Assembly (NCBI RefSeq): GCF_021117405.1
Contig: NZ_CP088251.1
Location: 2,232,001 to 2,296,000 of the forward strand
DNA from: Frateuria edaphi
GTDB taxonomy: Bacteria; Pseudomonadota; Gammaproteobacteria; Xanthomonadales; Rhodanobacteraceae
DNA: 64,000 nucleotides
Reading direction: 5' to 3'
A program made the translations under genes and the position numbers. Shown in pieces: positions 39,770-46,861 of this stretch (position 1 is its first letter; every line of letters begins with the position of its first letter). The notes below the pieces were generated by a model. It was given only the letters and a program-made list of their open reading frames with translations. It did not search any database and was not told where the DNA came from.

Positions 39770-39875
39770 CGGCGAAGCGTATCGACCGCGCTGGAACCGC
39801 GGCAAGCCTGACGGTGCATCCGCCTGTGCGGCTCGTCCGTATTCACATGGGCAAGACGCATCGACAGGGCCACCC

Positions 39876-40820
39876 ATGAACGAAACCGCTCAAGCTGCCG
39901 TACCCGGATTCGCCCGACGCCTGGCGACCGGCGTGCTCCGCTGGTTCGACACCCGTGCCGTCGAGGCGTCCGACGACGATCGCATCGACTGGGCGCGCGT
40001 ATTGCCGTTCATCGGCATGCACGTGGCCTGCGTCGGCGTGCTCTGGGTGGGATTCTCGTGGTTCGCATTCTGGGTGGCGGTGGGGCTCTACGCGCTCAGG
40101 ATGTTCGCGGTCACCGCCTTCTACCACCGCTATTTCTCGCACCATGCCTTCCGAACCTCGCGCCCGGTGCAGTTCGCTTTCGCGGTGATCGGCGCCAGTG
40201 CCGTCCAGCGCGGGCCGCTGTGGTGGGCCGCGCACCACCGCAACCACCATCGCCACGCCGATACCCCGGCGGACGTGCATTCCCCGGTGCAACACGGGTT
40301 CTTCCGCAGCCACGTCGGCTGGTTCCTGAGCCGCAGCGGCTTCCGCACCGACTGGAAAGCGATCCCGGACCTAGCGCGCTTCCCCGAACTGCGCCTGCTC
40401 GACCGCTTCGACCTGCTGGTACCGGTAGCGCTGGCCGTGTGGCTGTTCATGCTCGGGGACCGGCTGCGCACGACGCAACCTGAGCTCGGCACGGACGGCC
40501 CGCAATTGCTGGTGTGGGGCTTCTTCGTATCGACCATCGTGCTTTTCCACGTCACCGTGACGATCAACTCCCTGGCGCACCGCTTCGGCAGCCGGCGTTT
40601 CGTCACGCGCGACAACAGCCGCAACAACTGGCTGCTGGCATTGCTCACCTTTGGCGAAGGTTGGCACAACAACCATCATTTCTTCCCCGGCTCCGCGCGG
40701 CAGGGCTTCCGCTGGTGGGAGGTGGACCTGACCTTCTACCTGCTGCGGTTGCTCGCCCTCCTCGGCGTGGTGAGCCAACTGAAGGCGGTCCCGGCCGGCC
40801 TCAAGCGCCGCGGAGACTGA
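39876..40820 (+). CDS. Acyl-CoA (stearoyl-type) fatty-acid desaturase
   Basis: A 314-residue integral-membrane di-iron desaturase. The three histidine boxes are HRYFSHH (84-90), HHRNHH (120-125) and HNNHH (264-268), with the extra conserved NSLAHRFG. Two pairs of transmembrane helices surround them (ACVGVLWVGFSWFAFWVAVG, FAFAVIGASAV). This is the delta-9 type acting on acyl-CoA or phospholipid acyl chains. First gene of the lipid operon. The flavoprotein gene starts 4 bp after its stop. CAGGG precedes ATG 39876. Confidence 0.92.
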   Translation: MNETAQAAVPGFARRLATGVLRWFDTRAVEASDDDRIDWARVLPFIGMHVACVGVLWVGFSWFAFWVAVGLYALRMFAVTAFYHRYFSHHAFRTSRPVQFAFAVIGASAVQRGPLWWAAHHRNHHRHADTPADVHSPVQHGFFRSHVGWFLSRSGFRTDWKAIPDLARFPELRLLDRFDLLVPVALAVWLFMLGDRLRTTQPELGTDGPQLLVWGFFVSTIVLFHVTVTINSLAHRFGSRRFVTRDNSRNNWLLALLTFGEGWHNNHHFFPGSARQGFRWWEVDLTFYLLRLLALLGVVSQLKAVPAGLKRRGD

Positions 40821-40823
40821 TTC

Positions 40824-42068
40824 ATGCGTATCGCGGTCATCGGGTCAGGCATCGCCGGAATGGCCAGTGCATGGCTGCTCTCGCGCCAGCACGAGGTCAC
40901 CCTTTACGAGGCCAATGCCTATATCGGCGGCCATACGCACACCCATGACGTGGCGCTCGGCGGACGCCGCTACGCGGTGGATACCGGTTTCATCGTCTTC
41001 AACCGGCAGCACTACCCGCTGCTCGGCCGGCTGCTCGAGGAGCTGGACGTGCTGTCGCAGCCGACCACGATGAGCTTCGCCGTGCGCAACGAGCGCAGCG
41101 GACTTGAATACGGCGCCGCCTCGCTGCGTAGCCTGTTCTGTCAACGTCGCAACCTGGTCTCGCCCCGCTTCCTCGCCATGGTGCGCGACATCTACCGCTT
41201 TTACCGCGAGGCACCGGCCTTGCTCGATCAGGCAGGCGAAGGCCCGACGCTCGGCGACTACCTCGCCGGGCAAGGCTATGGCGCGGCGTTCCGCGACGAT
41301 CACCTGGTGCCGATGGCCTCGGCGCTGTGGTCGTCGCCCTCCCGGCAGATCCTCGCCTTCCCTGCCAAATACCTGGTCGCCTTCATGGCCAACCATCACA
41401 TGCTGCAGGTGGAAGGCCGGCCGCAATGGCGGGTGGTCAGTGGCGGCTCCCGCCGCTACGTCGACGCGCTGCGCATGCGCTGGCGGGTGCGCGAGCGGAT
41501 CGCCTGCCCGGTGCTGGCCGTGCACCGGCCGGCGGTCGGCGGCGTGGAGGTGCAGAGCCTGGCCGGATCGGAACGCTTCGACCAAGCCGTGCTGGCCTGC
41601 CACAGCGACCAGGCCCTGGCTTTGCTGGCCCAGCCGAGCGCGGCCGAACGCGAGGTGCTCGGTGCAATCACCTACCAGTCCAATGACACGGTATTGCACA
41701 CCGACACGCGCCTGCTGCCGCGCCGGCGCAGCGCGTGGTCGGCCTGGAATGCACTGGTGCCAGGCGACAGGGACGATGCCTGCACGGTCACCTACTGCAT
41801 GAACCTCCTGCAGTCGATCCAGGCACCGGAAACCTTCTGCGTGTCGCTCAACTGCACTGACCGGATCGACCCGGCGAAGATCCTGCGCCGGCTCACGTAT
41901 GCACACCCGGAATACACCCACGCCGCGGTCGCCGCCCAGCGGCGCAAGGCCGACATCCAGGGTATCGACCGGCTCTGGTACGCAGGCGCCTACTGGGGCT
42001 GGGGCTTCCACGAAGACGGCATGCGCAGCGCGGTCGCCGTGGCCGAAGCGCTTGGAGTGCGCTGGTGA
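40824..42068 (+). CDS. FAD-dependent amine-oxidase-like flavoprotein (COG2907 type)
   Basis: A 414-residue flavoprotein. The dinucleotide-binding motif is IAVIGSGIAGMASAWLLSRQ followed by the acidic strand end TLYEAN, then IGGHTHTHDV. The C-terminus has the FAD-closing motif LWYAGAYWGWGFHEDGMRSA. The family is annotated as an NAD/FAD-binding or amine-oxidase protein and travels with DUF1365 and CFA-synthase genes. A role in oxidising or desaturating acyl chains is inferred. The stop TGA overlaps the next ATG. Confidence 0.85.
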   Translation: MRIAVIGSGIAGMASAWLLSRQHEVTLYEANAYIGGHTHTHDVALGGRRYAVDTGFIVFNRQHYPLLGRLLEELDVLSQPTTMSFAVRNERSGLEYGAASLRSLFCQRRNLVSPRFLAMVRDIYRFYREAPALLDQAGEGPTLGDYLAGQGYGAAFRDDHLVPMASALWSSPSRQILAFPAKYLVAFMANHHMLQVEGRPQWRVVSGGSRRYVDALRMRWRVRERIACPVLAVHRPAVGGVEVQSLAGSERFDQAVLACHSDQALALLAQPSAAEREVLGAITYQSNDTVLHTDTRLLPRRRSAWSAWNALVPGDRDDACTVTYCMNLLQSIQAPETFCVSLNCTDRIDPAKILRRLTYAHPEYTHAAVAAQRRKADIQGIDRLWYAGAYWGWGFHEDGMRSAVAVAEALGVRW

Positions 42069-42838
42069 TGGATGCACCGCTCGCCAGCGCGGTCTACGAA
42101 GGGTGGGTGCGCCACCGCCGCTTCGCGCCGCGGCCGCATGCGTTCCGTTACCGCATTGCCATGCTTTACCTGGACCTGGCCGAATTGCCCCGGTTGTTCG
42201 AAGGTCGTTGGCTGTGGTCGTACGGTCGCGCCAACGTGGCCCAGTTCCGCCGCGGCGATTACCTCGGACCGACCGATCTCCCGCTGGACGAGGCGGTTCG
42301 CCGCCGCGTGGCAGAGCACACCGGACGCCGTCCCGAGGGACCGATCCGTCTGCTCACCCACCTGCGCTACGCCGGGCACTGCTTCAACCCGGTCAGCTTC
42401 TACTACTGCTACGGCGCCGATGGCCGCACGCTCGAAGCGATCCTCGCCGAGATCACCAACACGCCCTGGAAGGAGCGCCACGCCTACGTGCTGCCGCTGG
42501 GCGAGGGCGAGCGACACGGCAGCGTGCACGCCTGGCGCTTCGACAAGACCTTCCACGTGTCCCCGTTCATGCCGATGGAGCGCGCCTACGACTGGCGTTT
42601 CTCCGAGCCGGCGCAAGCGCTGCGCGTGCACATGAACGTGCTGCGCAGCGGCGCCCGCGACTTCGACGCCACGCTCGTCCTCCAGCGCCGCCCCTTCGAC
42701 GGCACGCAGTTGGCCCGCGCGCTGTGGCGCTTCCCGCTGATGACCCTGAAGGTCGTCGCCGCCATCCACTGGGAGGCGCTCAGGCTCTGGCTCAAGCGCA
42801 ATCCTGTTTACGACCATCCACGCCACCACGGGACCTGA
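42068..42838 (+). CDS. DUF1365-family protein
   Basis: A 256-residue protein of unknown activity (DUF1365, COG3496). Conserved blocks are YEGWVRHRRFAPRPHAFRYR, LLTHLRYAGHCFNPVSFYYC and FDKTFHVSPFMPMERAYDWRF. No catalytic motif is obvious. It overlaps the flavoprotein stop (TGATG) and ends 1 bp before the CFA-synthase gene, so stoichiometric production with them is expected. GTG 42065 is a less likely start. Confidence 0.88.
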   Translation: MDAPLASAVYEGWVRHRRFAPRPHAFRYRIAMLYLDLAELPRLFEGRWLWSYGRANVAQFRRGDYLGPTDLPLDEAVRRRVAEHTGRRPEGPIRLLTHLRYAGHCFNPVSFYYCYGADGRTLEAILAEITNTPWKERHAYVLPLGEGERHGSVHAWRFDKTFHVSPFMPMERAYDWRFSEPAQALRVHMNVLRSGARDFDATLVLQRRPFDGTQLARALWRFPLMTLKVVAAIHWEALRLWLKRNPVYDHPRHHGT

Positions 42839-42839
42839 C

Positions 42840-44198
42840 ATGGATCTGGAACTGAGCCCCTCCGACGAGCGCGCCGTCGCCGGCACCCTCGACCAGGCGC
42901 TCCACTATGCCGACCTGCCGACCGAGGCAACGGAAGCGGAGCGGATGCCGACCGCGACTTACGGCGCACTCGACCGCGCCTTGCGCTCCCGCCTGCTCGC
43001 GCAGATGGTGCAATTGCGCGGCTGCCGGCTCGTGCTGACCGATGCACTCGGCCGCGTCGAGCTGGGCCAGCCGGCCGAAGGCGAATCCCTGCTGCGCGTG
43101 CAACTGCAGGTCGACGATCCGCGTTTCTACCGCCTGGTCGCCGCCAACGGCAGCGTCGGCGCGGGCGAGGCCTATATCGAGGGCCTGTGGCGCTGCGACG
43201 ATCCGGTGGCGCTGGTCCGCATCATGGTGCGCAACCGCGACCTGCTCGATGGCATGGAGAGCGGACTGGCGCGGCTTGGCGGGTTGGCGCTGAAGGCGTG
43301 GCACGCGCTCAACCGGAACACGAAAAACGGCAGCCGGCGCAACATCGCCGCGCATTACGACCTGGGCAACCGGCTGTTCGGCCTGTTCCTCTCCGAGGAC
43401 CTGATGTACTCCTCGGCGATCTTCGCCCGGCCGGACGAATCGCTCGAATCGGCCTCGCGCCGCAAGCTCGAGCGCATCTGCCAGAAGCTCGCGCTTGGCC
43501 CCGATGATCACGTGCTGGAGATCGGCACCGGGTGGGGCGGCTTTGCGGTGCATGCAGCCACGCATCACGGCTGCCGCGTCACCACCACGACCATCTCGCA
43601 GGAACAGTACGACCTGGCACGCCAGCGCGTGCGGGACGCCGGGCTCGACGATCGCGTCACCGTGCTGCTCCAGGATTACCGCGATCTCTCGGGCAAGTAC
43701 GACAAGCTCGTCTCGATCGAGATGATCGAGGCGATCGGCGCGGCGTACATGCCAGCGTACTTCGCCGCCATCACGCGCCTGCTGGAACACGACGGCCTGG
43801 CGCTGATCCAGGCGATCACCGTCGAGGACCACCGCTACGCGCAGGCGCTGAAGTCGGTCGATTACATCAAGCGCTACATCTTCCCGGGGAGCTTCATTCC
43901 GGCGGTGAGCGCGATGCTGGAGGCTGCGCGCCGCTCGAGCGACTTGCGCCTGTTCCACCTGGAGGACATCGGCCCGAGCTACGCCCTCACCCTGAAGGCG
44001 TGGCGCGAACGCTTCATGGCCCGCCGCGCCGACGTGCTGGCGGCCGGCTACGACGCGCGCTTCATCCGCATGTGGGAGTTCTACCTGGCCTATTGCGAAG
44101 GCGGTTTTCGCGAGCGTTCGATCGGCGATGTACAGATGCTGCTGACCCGGCCAGGTTGCCGGCGCGAGTCCTACCTGCCGGACCTGGGCCTGCGATGA
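42840..44198 (+). CDS. Cyclopropane-fatty-acyl-phospholipid synthase family methyltransferase
   Basis: A 452-residue SAM-dependent enzyme acting on unsaturated acyl chains of phospholipids. The N-terminal lipid-binding region (about 40-150) includes GEAYIEGLWRCDD. It is followed by RRNIAAHYDLGNRLFGLFL, SAM motif VLEIGTGWGG (225-234), SIEMIEAIG, DYIKRYIFPGSFIP and YLAYCEGGF with the family cysteine. All the CFA active-site regions are present. Whether the product is a cyclopropane, methyl-branched or furan-type acid cannot be told. The next ATG overlaps its stop. Confidence 0.92.
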   Translation: MDLELSPSDERAVAGTLDQALHYADLPTEATEAERMPTATYGALDRALRSRLLAQMVQLRGCRLVLTDALGRVELGQPAEGESLLRVQLQVDDPRFYRLVAANGSVGAGEAYIEGLWRCDDPVALVRIMVRNRDLLDGMESGLARLGGLALKAWHALNRNTKNGSRRNIAAHYDLGNRLFGLFLSEDLMYSSAIFARPDESLESASRRKLERICQKLALGPDDHVLEIGTGWGGFAVHAATHHGCRVTTTTISQEQYDLARQRVRDAGLDDRVTVLLQDYRDLSGKYDKLVSIEMIEAIGAAYMPAYFAAITRLLEHDGLALIQAITVEDHRYAQALKSVDYIKRYIFPGSFIPAVSAMLEAARRSSDLRLFHLEDIGPSYALTLKAWRERFMARRADVLAAGYDARFIRMWEFYLAYCEGGFRERSIGDVQMLLTRPGCRRESYLPDLGLR

Positions 44199-44740
44199 AC
44201 GTCTGGTTCAACATCGTCGGTTACCAACTTGTCTGGCTGGCCACCGTCTGGGGCGCCTCGCACGAACGGGCCTGGCTTGGTCCGCTGGCGCTCCTGCCGT
44301 TCGCGTCGATCCATCTGCGCCGTCGCGACGGGCGGCTGGACGCCTGGCTGCTGCTTGCCGCCGCGGGCTGCGGGACGGTGCTCGATTCGCTCTATGCGGC
44401 CACCGGGACGATTGAGTATGCCTCGCCCTTCCCGTCGGGGCACGCCGCCCCGGCGTGGATCATCACCCTGTGGGCCGCGTTCGCCCTGACGCTGCGGCAC
44501 AGCCTGCGATTCCTGCAGGGACGCTGGCTACTGGCGATGGCGTTCGGCGCCGCAGGAGCGCCACTGGCCTACGTTGCAGCAGCCCGCAGCTGGCAGGCGG
44601 TCGGATTTCCGCAAGGCGTCGTGGTCGCGATAGGAGCGCTTGCCCTGGGCTGGGCCTTCGTACTTCCCTTGCTGCTGCGCCTGGCCATGACCATCGAACA
44701 CCAAACACGCTCGCGGACGGCAAGGCATGTCCACGTCTGA
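44195..44740 (+). CDS. DUF2878-family membrane protein
   Basis: A 181-residue inner-membrane protein with five or six predicted helices (WFNIVGYQLVWLATVWGA, WLLLAAAGCGTVLDSLYA, WIITLWAAFALTLRHSL, WLLAMAFGAAGAPLAYVAA, VVVAIGALALGWAFVLPLLL). It matches the DUF2878 pattern of a polar TGTIEYASPFPSGHAAPAW segment between helices. Function unknown; DUF2878 genes usually sit next to CFA-synthase/DUF1365 genes. Its ATG overlaps the CFA stop by four bases, and its end overlaps DUF1295 by 14 bp. Confidence 0.82.
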   Translation: MNVWFNIVGYQLVWLATVWGASHERAWLGPLALLPFASIHLRRRDGRLDAWLLLAAAGCGTVLDSLYAATGTIEYASPFPSGHAAPAWIITLWAAFALTLRHSLRFLQGRWLLAMAFGAAGAPLAYVAAARSWQAVGFPQGVVVAIGALALGWAFVLPLLLRLAMTIEHQTRSRTARHVHV

Positions 44741-45524
44741 ACTCTGGCATCAGCCCGTCTGGGTCTGGGCGGCAAGCGCCCTCGCGATGACGCTGGGCTG
44801 GATGGTGCAGCGGCGAACGCGCAACGCGGGTGTCGTCGATGCGATCTGGACGGCGGGTCTGGGCGGCAGCGCGCTCTATTACGCCGCGTCGGGCGAGGGA
44901 CTGCCCGACCGCCGTGTCGCCATGGCGCTACTCGGCAGTCTGTGGGCCGCCCGGCTGGGATGGCACCTTGGCCTGCGCATCCTTGGTGAAGCGGAGGACG
45001 GCCGCTATCGCCATCTGCGCAGACACTGGCACGACAACCAGGTGAAGTTCTTCCTGTTCTTCCAGGCGCAGGCCTGGCTGGTTGTGCTGTTCTCATTGCC
45101 ATTGCTGGCGGCGGCCGCCAATCGCGCGCCCTGGTCGGGCTGGGACAGCGTGGGCACCGCCGTATGGCTCCTCGCCATCGGCGGCGAAAGCCTCGCCGAT
45201 CGCCAATTGGCTCGCTTCCGCGCCGATCCTGCCCACCACGGCCTTACCTGCCGGGGGGGCCTGTGGCGCTATTCGCGCCATCCCAACTATTTCTTCGAGT
45301 GGCTGCAGTGGTTCGCCTACCTGTTGCTCGCGGTCGGCTCGATGCTCTGGTGGCTGGCGCTGCTGGGTCCGGTGCTGATGCTGGTGTCGCTGTACTGGGT
45401 CACCGGCATCCCGTTCACCGAAGCACAGGCTCTGCGCAGCCGCGGCGAGGACTACCGCGACTACCAGCGCCGCACCAGTCCGTTCTTCCCCTGGTTCCCC
45501 AAGGATCCCCGCCATGACCGATAG
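44727..45524 (+). CDS. DUF1295-family membrane protein (steroid 5-alpha-reductase-like)
   Basis: A 265-residue polytopic membrane protein. The C-terminal part is diagnostic: GLTCRGGLWRYSRHPNYFFEWLQWFAYLLL and GIPFTEAQALRSRGEDYRDYQRRTSPFFPWFPK, which place it in DUF1295/COG3752, related to 3-oxo-5-alpha-steroid reductases and ICMT-like methyltransferases. That fold binds NADPH or SAM, so a reductase step on a lipid is plausible but unproven. It overlaps both neighbours (14 bp and 11 bp). Confidence 0.87.
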   Translation: MSTSELWHQPVWVWAASALAMTLGWMVQRRTRNAGVVDAIWTAGLGGSALYYAASGEGLPDRRVAMALLGSLWAARLGWHLGLRILGEAEDGRYRHLRRHWHDNQVKFFLFFQAQAWLVVLFSLPLLAAAANRAPWSGWDSVGTAVWLLAIGGESLADRQLARFRADPAHHGLTCRGGLWRYSRHPNYFFEWLQWFAYLLLAVGSMLWWLALLGPVLMLVSLYWVTGIPFTEAQALRSRGEDYRDYQRRTSPFFPWFPKDPRHDR

Positions 45525-46596
45525 TCTCGTGCTCGACGCGCCCATCGCCGCCGTCCCGGAGCGCGGCCTGATCCAGCTCGCCGAGCGCGGGCTGGTTCCC
45601 GACGCCCTGCTGCGGCTGGGCATCCGCCGCCTGTGCGCCCACCGGTTGCGCGACGAGCGCCAGGGCAGCGTGGAGGCGAGCTGGGAGCGCTTCCGCGCCC
45701 TGCTGGATGAGCTGCGCCACAGCCCGCTGGCGGTGCATACCGACGCGGCCAACGCGCAGCACTACGAATTGCCCCCGGCGTTCTTCCAGCTCTGCCTGGG
45801 CAAGCGGCTGAAATACTCCAGTTGCTATTACCCGCTCGGCACCGAGAACCTGGACCAGGCCGAGGAAGCGATGCTCGCGCTCTACGGGCGTCGCGCGCAG
45901 CTGGCCGACGGCCAGGACATCCTGGAGCTGGGCTGCGGCTGGGGCTCGCTGACCTTGTGGATGGCCGAACGCTATCCTGGCGCGCGCATCACCGCCGTCT
46001 CCAACTCGCGCCTGCAGCGCGAGCACATCGAGGCGCGCTGTCGTGAGCGGGGACTGGCCAATGTCACGGTGATCACCTGCGACGTCAACCGCCTCGCGCT
46101 GCAAGGGGCGACGTTCGACCGCGTCGTGTCCGTGGAGATGTTCGAGCACGTGCGCAACTACCAGCGGCTGTTCGAGCAGATCGCGCAATGGCTGCGGCCG
46201 GATGGCAAGCTGTTCGTGCACATCTTCTGCCATCGCGAACTGATGTATCCGTTCGAAACGGCCGGTGGCGACAACTGGATGGGGCGACACTTCTTTACCG
46301 GCGGGCTCATGCCGGCGGCCGATACCTTCCTGCATTTCCAGCAGCACCTCGTCATCGAGGATCAATGGCGTCTTCCCGGCACCCACTACCAGCGCACCGC
46401 CAACGCCTGGCTGGAACGCCAGGATGCCAACCGCAGGCAGGTGCTGCGTGTGCTGGCCGATGCCTACGGCAAGTCCGCCGCCGCGTTGTGGCACCAGCGC
46501 TGGCGCATGTTCTGGATGGCCTGCGCGGAACTGTTCGGTTACGACAACGGCAACGAATGGCTGGTCGGCCATTACCGTTTCAGCCGGCGCGACTGA
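45514..46596 (+). CDS. SAM-dependent methyltransferase, CFA-synthase / coclaurine N-methyltransferase-like
   Basis: A 360-residue class I methyltransferase. The N-terminus IQLAERGLVPDALLRLGIRRL and the block HYELPPAFFQLCLGKRLKYSSCYYP strongly resemble the plant coclaurine N-methyltransferase branch of the CFA-synthase superfamily. The SAM motif is ILELGCGWGSLTLWMAERYP, then SVEMFEHVRNYQ and FVHIFCHRELMYPF. It lacks the N-terminal lipid-binding domain of ordinary CFA synthases. Last gene of the operon, overlapping DUF1295 by 11 bp. The substrate (amine head group or acyl chain) is unknown. Confidence 0.87.
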   Translation: MTDSLVLDAPIAAVPERGLIQLAERGLVPDALLRLGIRRLCAHRLRDERQGSVEASWERFRALLDELRHSPLAVHTDAANAQHYELPPAFFQLCLGKRLKYSSCYYPLGTENLDQAEEAMLALYGRRAQLADGQDILELGCGWGSLTLWMAERYPGARITAVSNSRLQREHIEARCRERGLANVTVITCDVNRLALQGATFDRVVSVEMFEHVRNYQRLFEQIAQWLRPDGKLFVHIFCHRELMYPFETAGGDNWMGRHFFTGGLMPAADTFLHFQQHLVIEDQWRLPGTHYQRTANAWLERQDANRRQVLRVLADAYGKSAAALWHQRWRMFWMACAELFGYDNGNEWLVGHYRFSRRD

Positions 46597-46810: not shown

Positions 46811-46840
46811 AAAAAAAAGCCCGGCTTGCGCCGGGCTTTT
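46811..46840 (-). terminator. Bidirectional terminator between lipid operon and OmpA gene
   Basis: The stem AAGCCCGGC (46817-46825) pairs with GCCGGGCTT (46830-46838) around TTGC. An A run precedes it (46811-46818) and a T run follows. On the minus strand it ends 22 bp past the OmpA-family stop, and on the plus strand it can end the lipid operon. Confidence 0.88.
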
Positions 46841-46861
46841 CCTGTTGCATGGCAGTTCCGC

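Follow-up and report, generated by a model that had tools for sequence, protein, structure and literature searches.

A seven-gene operon of Frateuria edaphi as a probable single-locus pathway for dimethyl furan fatty acids

Which lipid would be made by the seven consecutive genes at positions 39876-46596 of the Frateuria edaphi stretch considered here (NZ_CP088251.1, positions 2,232,001-2,296,000; 64,000 nt, hereafter the window)? An initial annotation of the window proposed a co-translated lipid pathway leading to an unusual membrane acyl chain, with furan fatty acids as one option. Co-translation agrees with the gene layout, and the furan option can be sharpened to the Ufa and Fuf enzymes. 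Judged from sequence, the operon is very probably a single-locus pathway for dimethyl furan fatty acids (FuFA) under RpoE-ChrR control. FuFA are antioxidant lipids consumed by singlet oxygen.

Assignment of the pathway enzymes

The operon consists of the following genes, for which S-adenosylmethionine is abbreviated to SAM.

39876..40820, + strand: fatty acid desaturase, acyl-CoA desaturase-like (Pfam PF00487 FA_desaturase, 3e-21)
40824..42068, + strand: UfaD-like flavoprotein of the amine oxidase type (Pfam PF01593 Amino_oxidase, 7e-17, and NAD_binding_8)
42065..42838, + strand: UfaO-like DUF1365 protein (Pfam PF07103, 2e-87)
42840..44198, + strand: UfaM-like SAM methyltransferase of the CMAS family (Pfam PF02353, 2e-78)
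44195..44740, + strand: DUF2878 protein, putative small membrane-type accessory protein (Pfam PF11086, 2e-36)
44727..45524, + strand: DUF1295 protein with a weakly sterol/steroid-reductase-like fold (Pfam PF06966, 2e-70; Steroid_dh, 7e-8)
45514..46596, + strand: FufM-like SAM methyltransferase, coclaurine N-methyltransferase-like (Pfam CMAS, 5e-39; PDB 6gkv, 9e-76)

Successive spacings of the seven open reading frames (ORFs) are +3, -4, +1, -4, -14 and -11 bp. The seven coupled genes of the initial annotation, described there as separated by 4 bp or less or overlapping, were recovered with gaps of 1-3 bp and overlaps of 4-14 bp, and each of its seven gene names is backed by a Pfam match.

The pathway of Rhodobacter sphaeroides starts with methylation of cis-vaccenate by UfaM, after which UfaD forms the methylated diene and the DUF1365 protein UfaO closes the furan with O2; FufM of Rhodopseudomonas palustris puts the second methyl on (PMC7380195). 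In plants, AT3G23510 resembles UfaM and UfaD together, AT1G30130 resembles UfaO and AT4G33110 resembles FufM (PMC10940516). From the protein families, the residue signature, the gene order and the co-occurrence across genomes, we infer that the flavoprotein, the DUF1365 protein, the first CMAS and the coclaurine-type methyltransferase are the counterparts of UfaD, UfaO, UfaM and FufM respectively. Since these four genes would correspond to the published enzymes, the last methyltransferase, which had been regarded as an extension of a known set, would instead be the published second methylation.

In the proposed route, the desaturase would supply cis-monounsaturated acyl chains, UfaM would methylate the acyl double bond, UfaD would make a methylated conjugated diene, UfaO would insert oxygen from O2 and close a monomethyl furan, and FufM would add the second ring methyl from SAM. 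DUF1295 would use NAD(P)H to reduce a C=C bond in an acyl chain of the pathway, the substrate being either the methylated alkene or an ene-dione produced when singlet oxygen opens the furan. DUF2878 would be an accessory protein and RpoE-ChrR would drive the operon.

The residue signature of the first CMAS was found to be highly conserved. In a set of 80 family members (the window, 76 loci and 3 plasmid loci), all 80 carry S-E-A-Q-I-Y at six signature positions, and in none of them are the Cys and the two His residues typical of cyclopropane synthases present. We take the bicarbonate-site residues of the cyclopropane synthases to be C139 and H266 in E. coli numbering, positions at which the first CMAS has S and Q. 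A wider sample of 299 Pseudomonadota genomes, which includes the window's own genome, was searched with a FufM profile, and 13 further genomes with a DUF1365-adjacent CMAS were chosen from this search. E-A-Q was observed in all 13, with the Cys position occupied by S in nine, A in three and C in one, whereas control CMAS proteins from genomes without DUF1365 show C-E-H-H in 6/6. The Frateuria genome (3.77 Mb, one contig) also contains a separate CMAS elsewhere with the C-E-H-H residues. Plain cyclopropane synthesis was therefore rejected on the signature of the first CMAS. The FufM family retains E-H-H in 78 of 79 members, with one gap. The FufM profile itself separates well from cyclopropane fatty acid (CFA) synthases, as 19 genomes match at 356 bits or more and the next match is at 134 bits; a 101-bit match in one genome (G217) covers the C-terminal part only. 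DUF1365 was observed in 18 of the 19 FufM genomes vs 76/280 others, two of the 76 being fragments.

A broader alternative is that no furan is made and that the operon produces cyclopropane chains, or else saturated methyl-branched chains, in which case DUF1295 would be the reductase. Both methyltransferases do belong to the CMAS family, they are named CfaS1 and CfaS2 in PMC11832516, where cyclopropane formation is assumed for both, and the weak likeness of DUF1295 to C=C reductases would make 11-methyl-18:1 a fitting substrate. UfaM of Halomonas, from a consecutive ufaD-ufaO-ufaM set, gave 11-methyloctadec-12-enoate in E. coli, and cyclic fatty acids were raised too (PMC12089945). The last result weighs against the furan assignment, as does the observation that none of the listed NCBIfam models matched any of the seven proteins at its cut-off. 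The no-furan alternative, however, leaves the DUF1365 protein and the flavoprotein without a role, and its cyclopropane form runs counter to the residue signature and to the presence of a CMAS with the cyclopropane-type residues elsewhere in the genome. We regard it as very unlikely.

The desaturase is related to acyl-CoA desaturases of the PDB (4zyo, 5e-25; 4ymk, 3e-24) and is the presumed supplier of monoenes; it is one of three PF00487 matches in its own genome. The nearest PDB relative of the flavoprotein is the amine oxidase LkcE (8e-38). The DUF1365 gene lies directly after the flavoprotein gene in every fetched operon relative having the flavoprotein and is the sole DUF1365 match in its own genome; no PDB relative of the protein was found at E<=0.01.

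Gene order and regulation

With the FufM protein as query, at least 594 stretches were matched, of which 570 encode a relative. The best 80 of the 570 were analysed, so that near relatives are favoured in the gene-order counts, and since contig ends cut 7 of the 80 loci the counts use the other 73. All seven genes occur in the same order in 56/73. DUF1295 alone is missing in four and a locus of Achromobacter piechaudii (L065) has ufaM-DUF1295-fufM only. DUF2878 is missing in 13, 12 of them otherwise complete. The closest FufM relatives among the best 80 belong to Dyella and Oleiagrimonas (75-77% identity), and many operon carriers there have Lysobacterales names, with Achromobacter and Aquabacterium also represented.

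Farther off, the operon is seldom whole. Among the 19 of 299 genomes with FufM, all seven genes surround it in four (G000, which is the window's own genome, G213, G154 and G094) and six in one (G031). The flavoprotein, DUF1365 and UfaM are found around FufM in G013, G225 and G187, and the flavoprotein and DUF1365 without UfaM in G020, G259 and G119; the remaining FufM genomes have none of these three in the stretch around FufM. The desaturase lies within the cluster only in the five genomes with six or seven genes and in an Acinetobacter plasmid locus. The conserved order anticipated by the initial annotation thus holds among near relatives but not for the whole operon at greater distance. In the same sample DUF2878 was observed in 45 genomes, 44 of which also have DUF1365. 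Its model is confident and consists of six helices, and no match in the PDB was found at E<=0.001.

Several side observations concern the distribution of these genes. A contig labelled Candidatus Eremiobacteraeota (L075) carries all seven genes in order with a FufM of 69% identity, which is either a transfer or a binning error. FuFA gene sets were also found on plasmids of Burkholderia anthina (L177, typed as conjugative in PLSDB) and Acinetobacter piscicola (L133), and at L175 and L176, the last three being typed as mobilizable. Within a few kb of the B. anthina set lie transposase genes of the TniQ/TniB/Mu type. FuFA synthesis may be a spreading mobile trait. Furthermore, DUF2177 and DUF2147 genes are recurrent neighbours of FufM in five rhizobial clusters (L136, L137, L175, L176 and L178), where DUF2177, which is also SAK1-dependent in Chlamydomonas, is likely to be another accessory. 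In beta- and gammaproteobacterial clusters, we noticed a lipocalin gene near L133, L134, L135 and L177, chalcone isomerase family and DUF2256 genes near L133, L134 and L177, and a cryptochrome/photolyase gene near L133 and L134.

A predicted RpoE-type promoter precedes the operon and a possible terminator follows it.

39816..39841, + strand: RpoE (ECF11)-type promoter box GCATCC-N16-CGTA, 34 bp 5' of the desaturase ATG (predicted function)
46812..46843, strand not assigned: terminator-like stem-loop between the operon and a convergent OmpA-family gene

The box is shared widely by the operon relatives. In a dyad word count over 71 upstream regions of 220 bp, ATCC-N16-CGTA occurred in 58, and the top dyad of one shuffled set in 8. 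Of 70 regions, 57 have GCATCC-N16-CGTA no farther than 400 bp from the operon start, at a median of 32 bp, compared with a shuffled mean of 0.04. In the Frateuria genome the box is also present before rpoE, and a version with a 17-base spacer before a lipocalin gene. This rpoE-chrR pair lies at about 1.802 Mb, some 0.47 Mb from the operon, and has lipocalin and TspO genes beside it. This genome contains 15 exact copies of the box vs 2 of the reversed control pattern; several of the 15 are inside ORFs and may be there by chance.

Because the box stands before both the operon and the rpoE of the same genome, RpoE-ChrR control of the operon is likely, and an RpoE-free operon was rejected on the same ground. 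The initial annotation stated that no rpoE/chrR is adjacent. This is correct by position, but it does not exclude the operon from the regulon, as rpoE-chrR is present elsewhere with the same box. Among the 80 loci, a chrR match falls within the stretch in 15 and a lipocalin match in 56. In three S. maltophilia loci, two boxes were observed back to back between the desaturase and a divergent rpoE-chrR, at about 0.9 kb from the desaturase, with a further box immediately upstream of the desaturase.

Whether singlet oxygen is the relevant stress has to be weighed as well, since the cluster might remodel the membrane against superoxide or other stress with singlet oxygen irrelevant. Phenotypes of Stenotrophomonas fit such a role: rpoEc-chrR-chrA mutants of S. 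maltophilia had normal singlet-oxygen tolerance in the assays of the paper, and the effects of the cluster in the chrR mutant were on menadione tolerance and on CAZ susceptibility (PMC11832516). Together with the absence of the exact box from 13 of the 70 upstream regions, these results count against the main reading of a FuFA operon under RpoE-ChrR control. On the other side, the core of the RpoE-ChrR regulon includes FuFA genes (PMC6852236), and DUF1365 was observed in 63/68 ChrR genomes of the sample vs 29/231 others (two DUF1365 fragments excluded). The stress phenotype may also depend on the host. We consider a purely superoxide or other-stress role unlikely.

Further exact copies of the box in the Frateuria genome were noticed 24-122 bp before script-chosen starts of genes for a methionine sulfoxide reductase, ClpS, a DsbD_TM/redoxin protein and a DUF3034 protein (L146, L143, L141 and L152 respectively), which are candidate RpoE targets. 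The stem-loop at 46812-46843 has a 14-pair stem with a T tail on the - strand and a 6-pair stem on the + strand, where shuffles expect 0.5. The neighbours of the operon, a divergent RNA pseudouridine synthase gene upstream and the convergent OmpA-family gene downstream, look to be outside the operon set.

Linkage and possible function of DUF1295

The DUF1295 gene was found to be closely associated with FufM across genomes. The DUF1295 profile matches 28 of the 299 genomes, 17/19 with FufM vs 11/280 without (Fisher p 1.6e-18, genomes being counted without kinship correction). In 14 of the 17, from ten families, DUF1295 lies within 600 bp of FufM, 12 times before it. Plasmids show the same arrangement: 44 plasmid records have FufM, and DUF1295 stands directly before it in all nine named loci examined (Acinetobacter, Cupriavidus, Caballeronia, Burkholderia, Rhizobium twice, Shinella, Mesorhizobium and Ensifer), the unannotated Ensifer gene having been located by tblastn. 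In six of the seven Rhizobiales, Caballeronia and Burkholderia plasmid loci, sigma and anti-sigma genes are just upstream of DUF1295, with a hydrolase gene in between in one of the six; in the R. leguminosarum locus they are farther away and in opposite orientation.

There are also exceptions that weaken this linkage. DUF1295 comes after FufM in two of the 14 linked cases (G225 and G013), is missing from two of the 19 FufM genomes and has no physical link in 10 of the 28 DUF1295 genomes. Three genomes (G147, G091 and G293) have DUF1295 near DUF1365 and/or ChrR without FufM, and on their account a strict tie of DUF1295 to FufM was rejected. The linkage to FufM, taken together with the exceptions near DUF1365 and ChrR, therefore points to DUF1295 as a FuFA pathway component, most often of the dimethyl branch. 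The four near-relative clusters without DUF1295 were not accepted as evidence of its dispensability, since each of the four genomes has a DUF1295 match outside the cluster. One of these matches scores 387 bits and the other three 144-170 bits; in two of those three, one stop codon is read through. At L038:8180-8950, in a metagenome-assembled genome of Thermomonas, DUF1295 appears to be frameshifted in its first half.

A comparable gene set is induced in an alga. The SAK1-dependent singlet-oxygen genes of Chlamydomonas include CFA1, CFA2, DUF1365, DUF1295 and DUF2177, and CFA2 is listed as a coclaurine N-methyltransferase in another table of the same paper (PMC4067076). The authors of a later review state that they are investigating a possible furan-type modification in Chlamydomonas (PMC8491031).

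The reaction of DUF1295 was approached through a structural model (mean predicted local distance difference test, pLDDT, 95.6). Its best Foldseek matches are weak, namely the Delta14-sterol reductase 4QUV (E 0.008) and the steroid 5-alpha-reductase 7BW1 (E 0.06), followed by the isoprenylcysteine methyltransferase (ICMT) 5VG9 (E 0.12), one subunit of 8XKU (E 0.17) and the steroid reductase 7C83 (E 0.2). Foldseek probabilities are 0.92-1.00 overall and 0.99-1.00 for the top-ranked 4QUV and 7BW1. The protein also has an invariant SRHPNYF motif, which we take to suit reductases. We hypothesize, with the model as guide, that DUF1295 may reduce a C=C of the pathway acyl chain.

The order of these matches raises the alternative that DUF1295 is an ICMT-type membrane methyltransferase and not a reductase. 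A search with its sequence profile placed Ma-ICMT 4a2n (2e-4) ahead of the steroid reductase 7c83 (7e-3), and a second profile search did the same (0.019 and 0.16). 5VG9 ranks third by protein in Foldseek, before 7C83, with 4a2n lower. Against a reductase stand also the lack of any Foldseek match at E<=0.001, the presence of ICMT enzymes among the weak matches and the only NCBIfam match of the protein, an isoprenylcysteine methyltransferase model reached at 26 bits vs a cut-off of 160. The top folds, on the other hand, are 4QUV and 7BW1 rather than an ICMT, and the three reductases reach TM-scores of about 0.5 vs 0.36-0.37 (by query length) for the ICMTs. In Pfam, Steroid_dh is above its cut-off (7e-8) and ICMT just below (6e-5), the ICMT sequence match is limited to profile positions 170-254, and the motif argues in the same direction under our assumption above. 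An ICMT-type enzyme is thus unlikely in our judgement.

If DUF1295 is a C=C reductase, the step at which it would act has to be placed. No DUF1295 had to be added for FufM to produce dimethyl-FuFA, either in vitro or in R. sphaeroides (PMC7380195). DUF1295 would accordingly be dispensable for the FufM step as such, unless the host supplied one, which speaks against a necessary role there; since FufM acts alone in vitro, a DUF1295 step after furan formation becomes attractive. When singlet oxygen opens the furan, an enone-like ene-dione is formed, and a saturated 1,4-dione can close to a furan. DUF1295, with its weak likeness to enone-reducing enzymes, might then be a FuFA repair enzyme which reduces the ene-dione to the saturated 1,4-dione, from which the furan would form again (Paal-Knorr). 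We consider this specific repair role improbable, and put it forward as a speculation. By locus number, RPA0923, of which a deletion strain has been published, is a neighbour of R. palustris fufM, and our guess is that it encodes a DUF1295 protein.

Comparison with known systems

The FuFA enzymes have been published before, and so has a sigma-controlled cluster like this one. No paper joining the two was found in our search, most of the subscription literature being outside it, and no furan fatty acid paper with Stenotrophomonas was found either. A non-exhaustive search for 'furan fatty acid' gave nothing, among the papers listed, for Xanthomonas, Lysobacter, Acinetobacter, Dyella or Rhodanobacter, and literature naming DUF1295, available mostly as abstracts, contained no assignment of this role. 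The dimethyl FuFA assignment would offer a chemistry for the published, unexplained stress cluster of Stenotrophomonas and relatives, provide every known gene of the pathway on one 6.7-kb piece with which FuFA could be made, and render the function of DUF1295, as a pathway component, directly testable. If the repair role of DUF1295 were true, FuFA would quench singlet oxygen renewably and not just once, in bacteria and, considering the co-induced Chlamydomonas set, in algae; the view of FuFA as consumable antioxidants or one-time messengers would then change.

The closest known cluster is smlt2375-smlt2367 of S. maltophilia, whose annotations and order fit the desaturase-to-FufM core and which is controlled by sigma-Ec/ChrR (PMC11832516, 2025). 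In one RNA-seq experiment these genes were 165- to 697-fold up without ChrR and returned when rpoEc was also lost (PMC11832516). The cluster differs in having an extra first gene and a lipocalin gene at its end and in adjoining rpoEc, and its chemistry is described as 'membrane lipid modification' (PMC11832516); a text search of the available part of that paper returned no furan, UfaM or Lemke. Three S. maltophilia loci of our own set (L055, L059 and L068) have the seven genes with a divergent rpoE-chrR upstream. The ufaD-ufaO-ufaM cluster of Halomonas sp. YLGW01 is likewise formed by three consecutive genes in a gammaproteobacterium, but in the available text no FufM, DUF1295 or desaturase is mentioned for it (PMC12089945). 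Outside lipid methylation, the steroid 5-alpha-reductases and the Delta14-sterol reductase (7BW1, 7C83 and 4QUV) appear to be weakly alike to the DUF1295 model in overall fold (TM about 0.5).

The Rhodobacter/Rhodopseudomonas FuFA pathway uses the same four enzyme kinds, acting there on phospholipid acyl chains (PMC7380195). As in Frateuria, the flavoprotein and DUF1365 genes are adjacent, and RpoE-ChrR is in control in R. sphaeroides (PMC7380195). The genes are nevertheless dispersed in both organisms: ufaM lies away from ufaD-ufaO in R. sphaeroides (PMC12089945), and in R. palustris ufaM, ufaO and ufaD are RPA2569-2571 while fufM is RPA0924 (PMC7380195). Unlike in these systems, the predicted UfaM, UfaD, UfaO and FufM of Frateuria edaphi are encoded in one unit together with the desaturase, DUF2878 and DUF1295.

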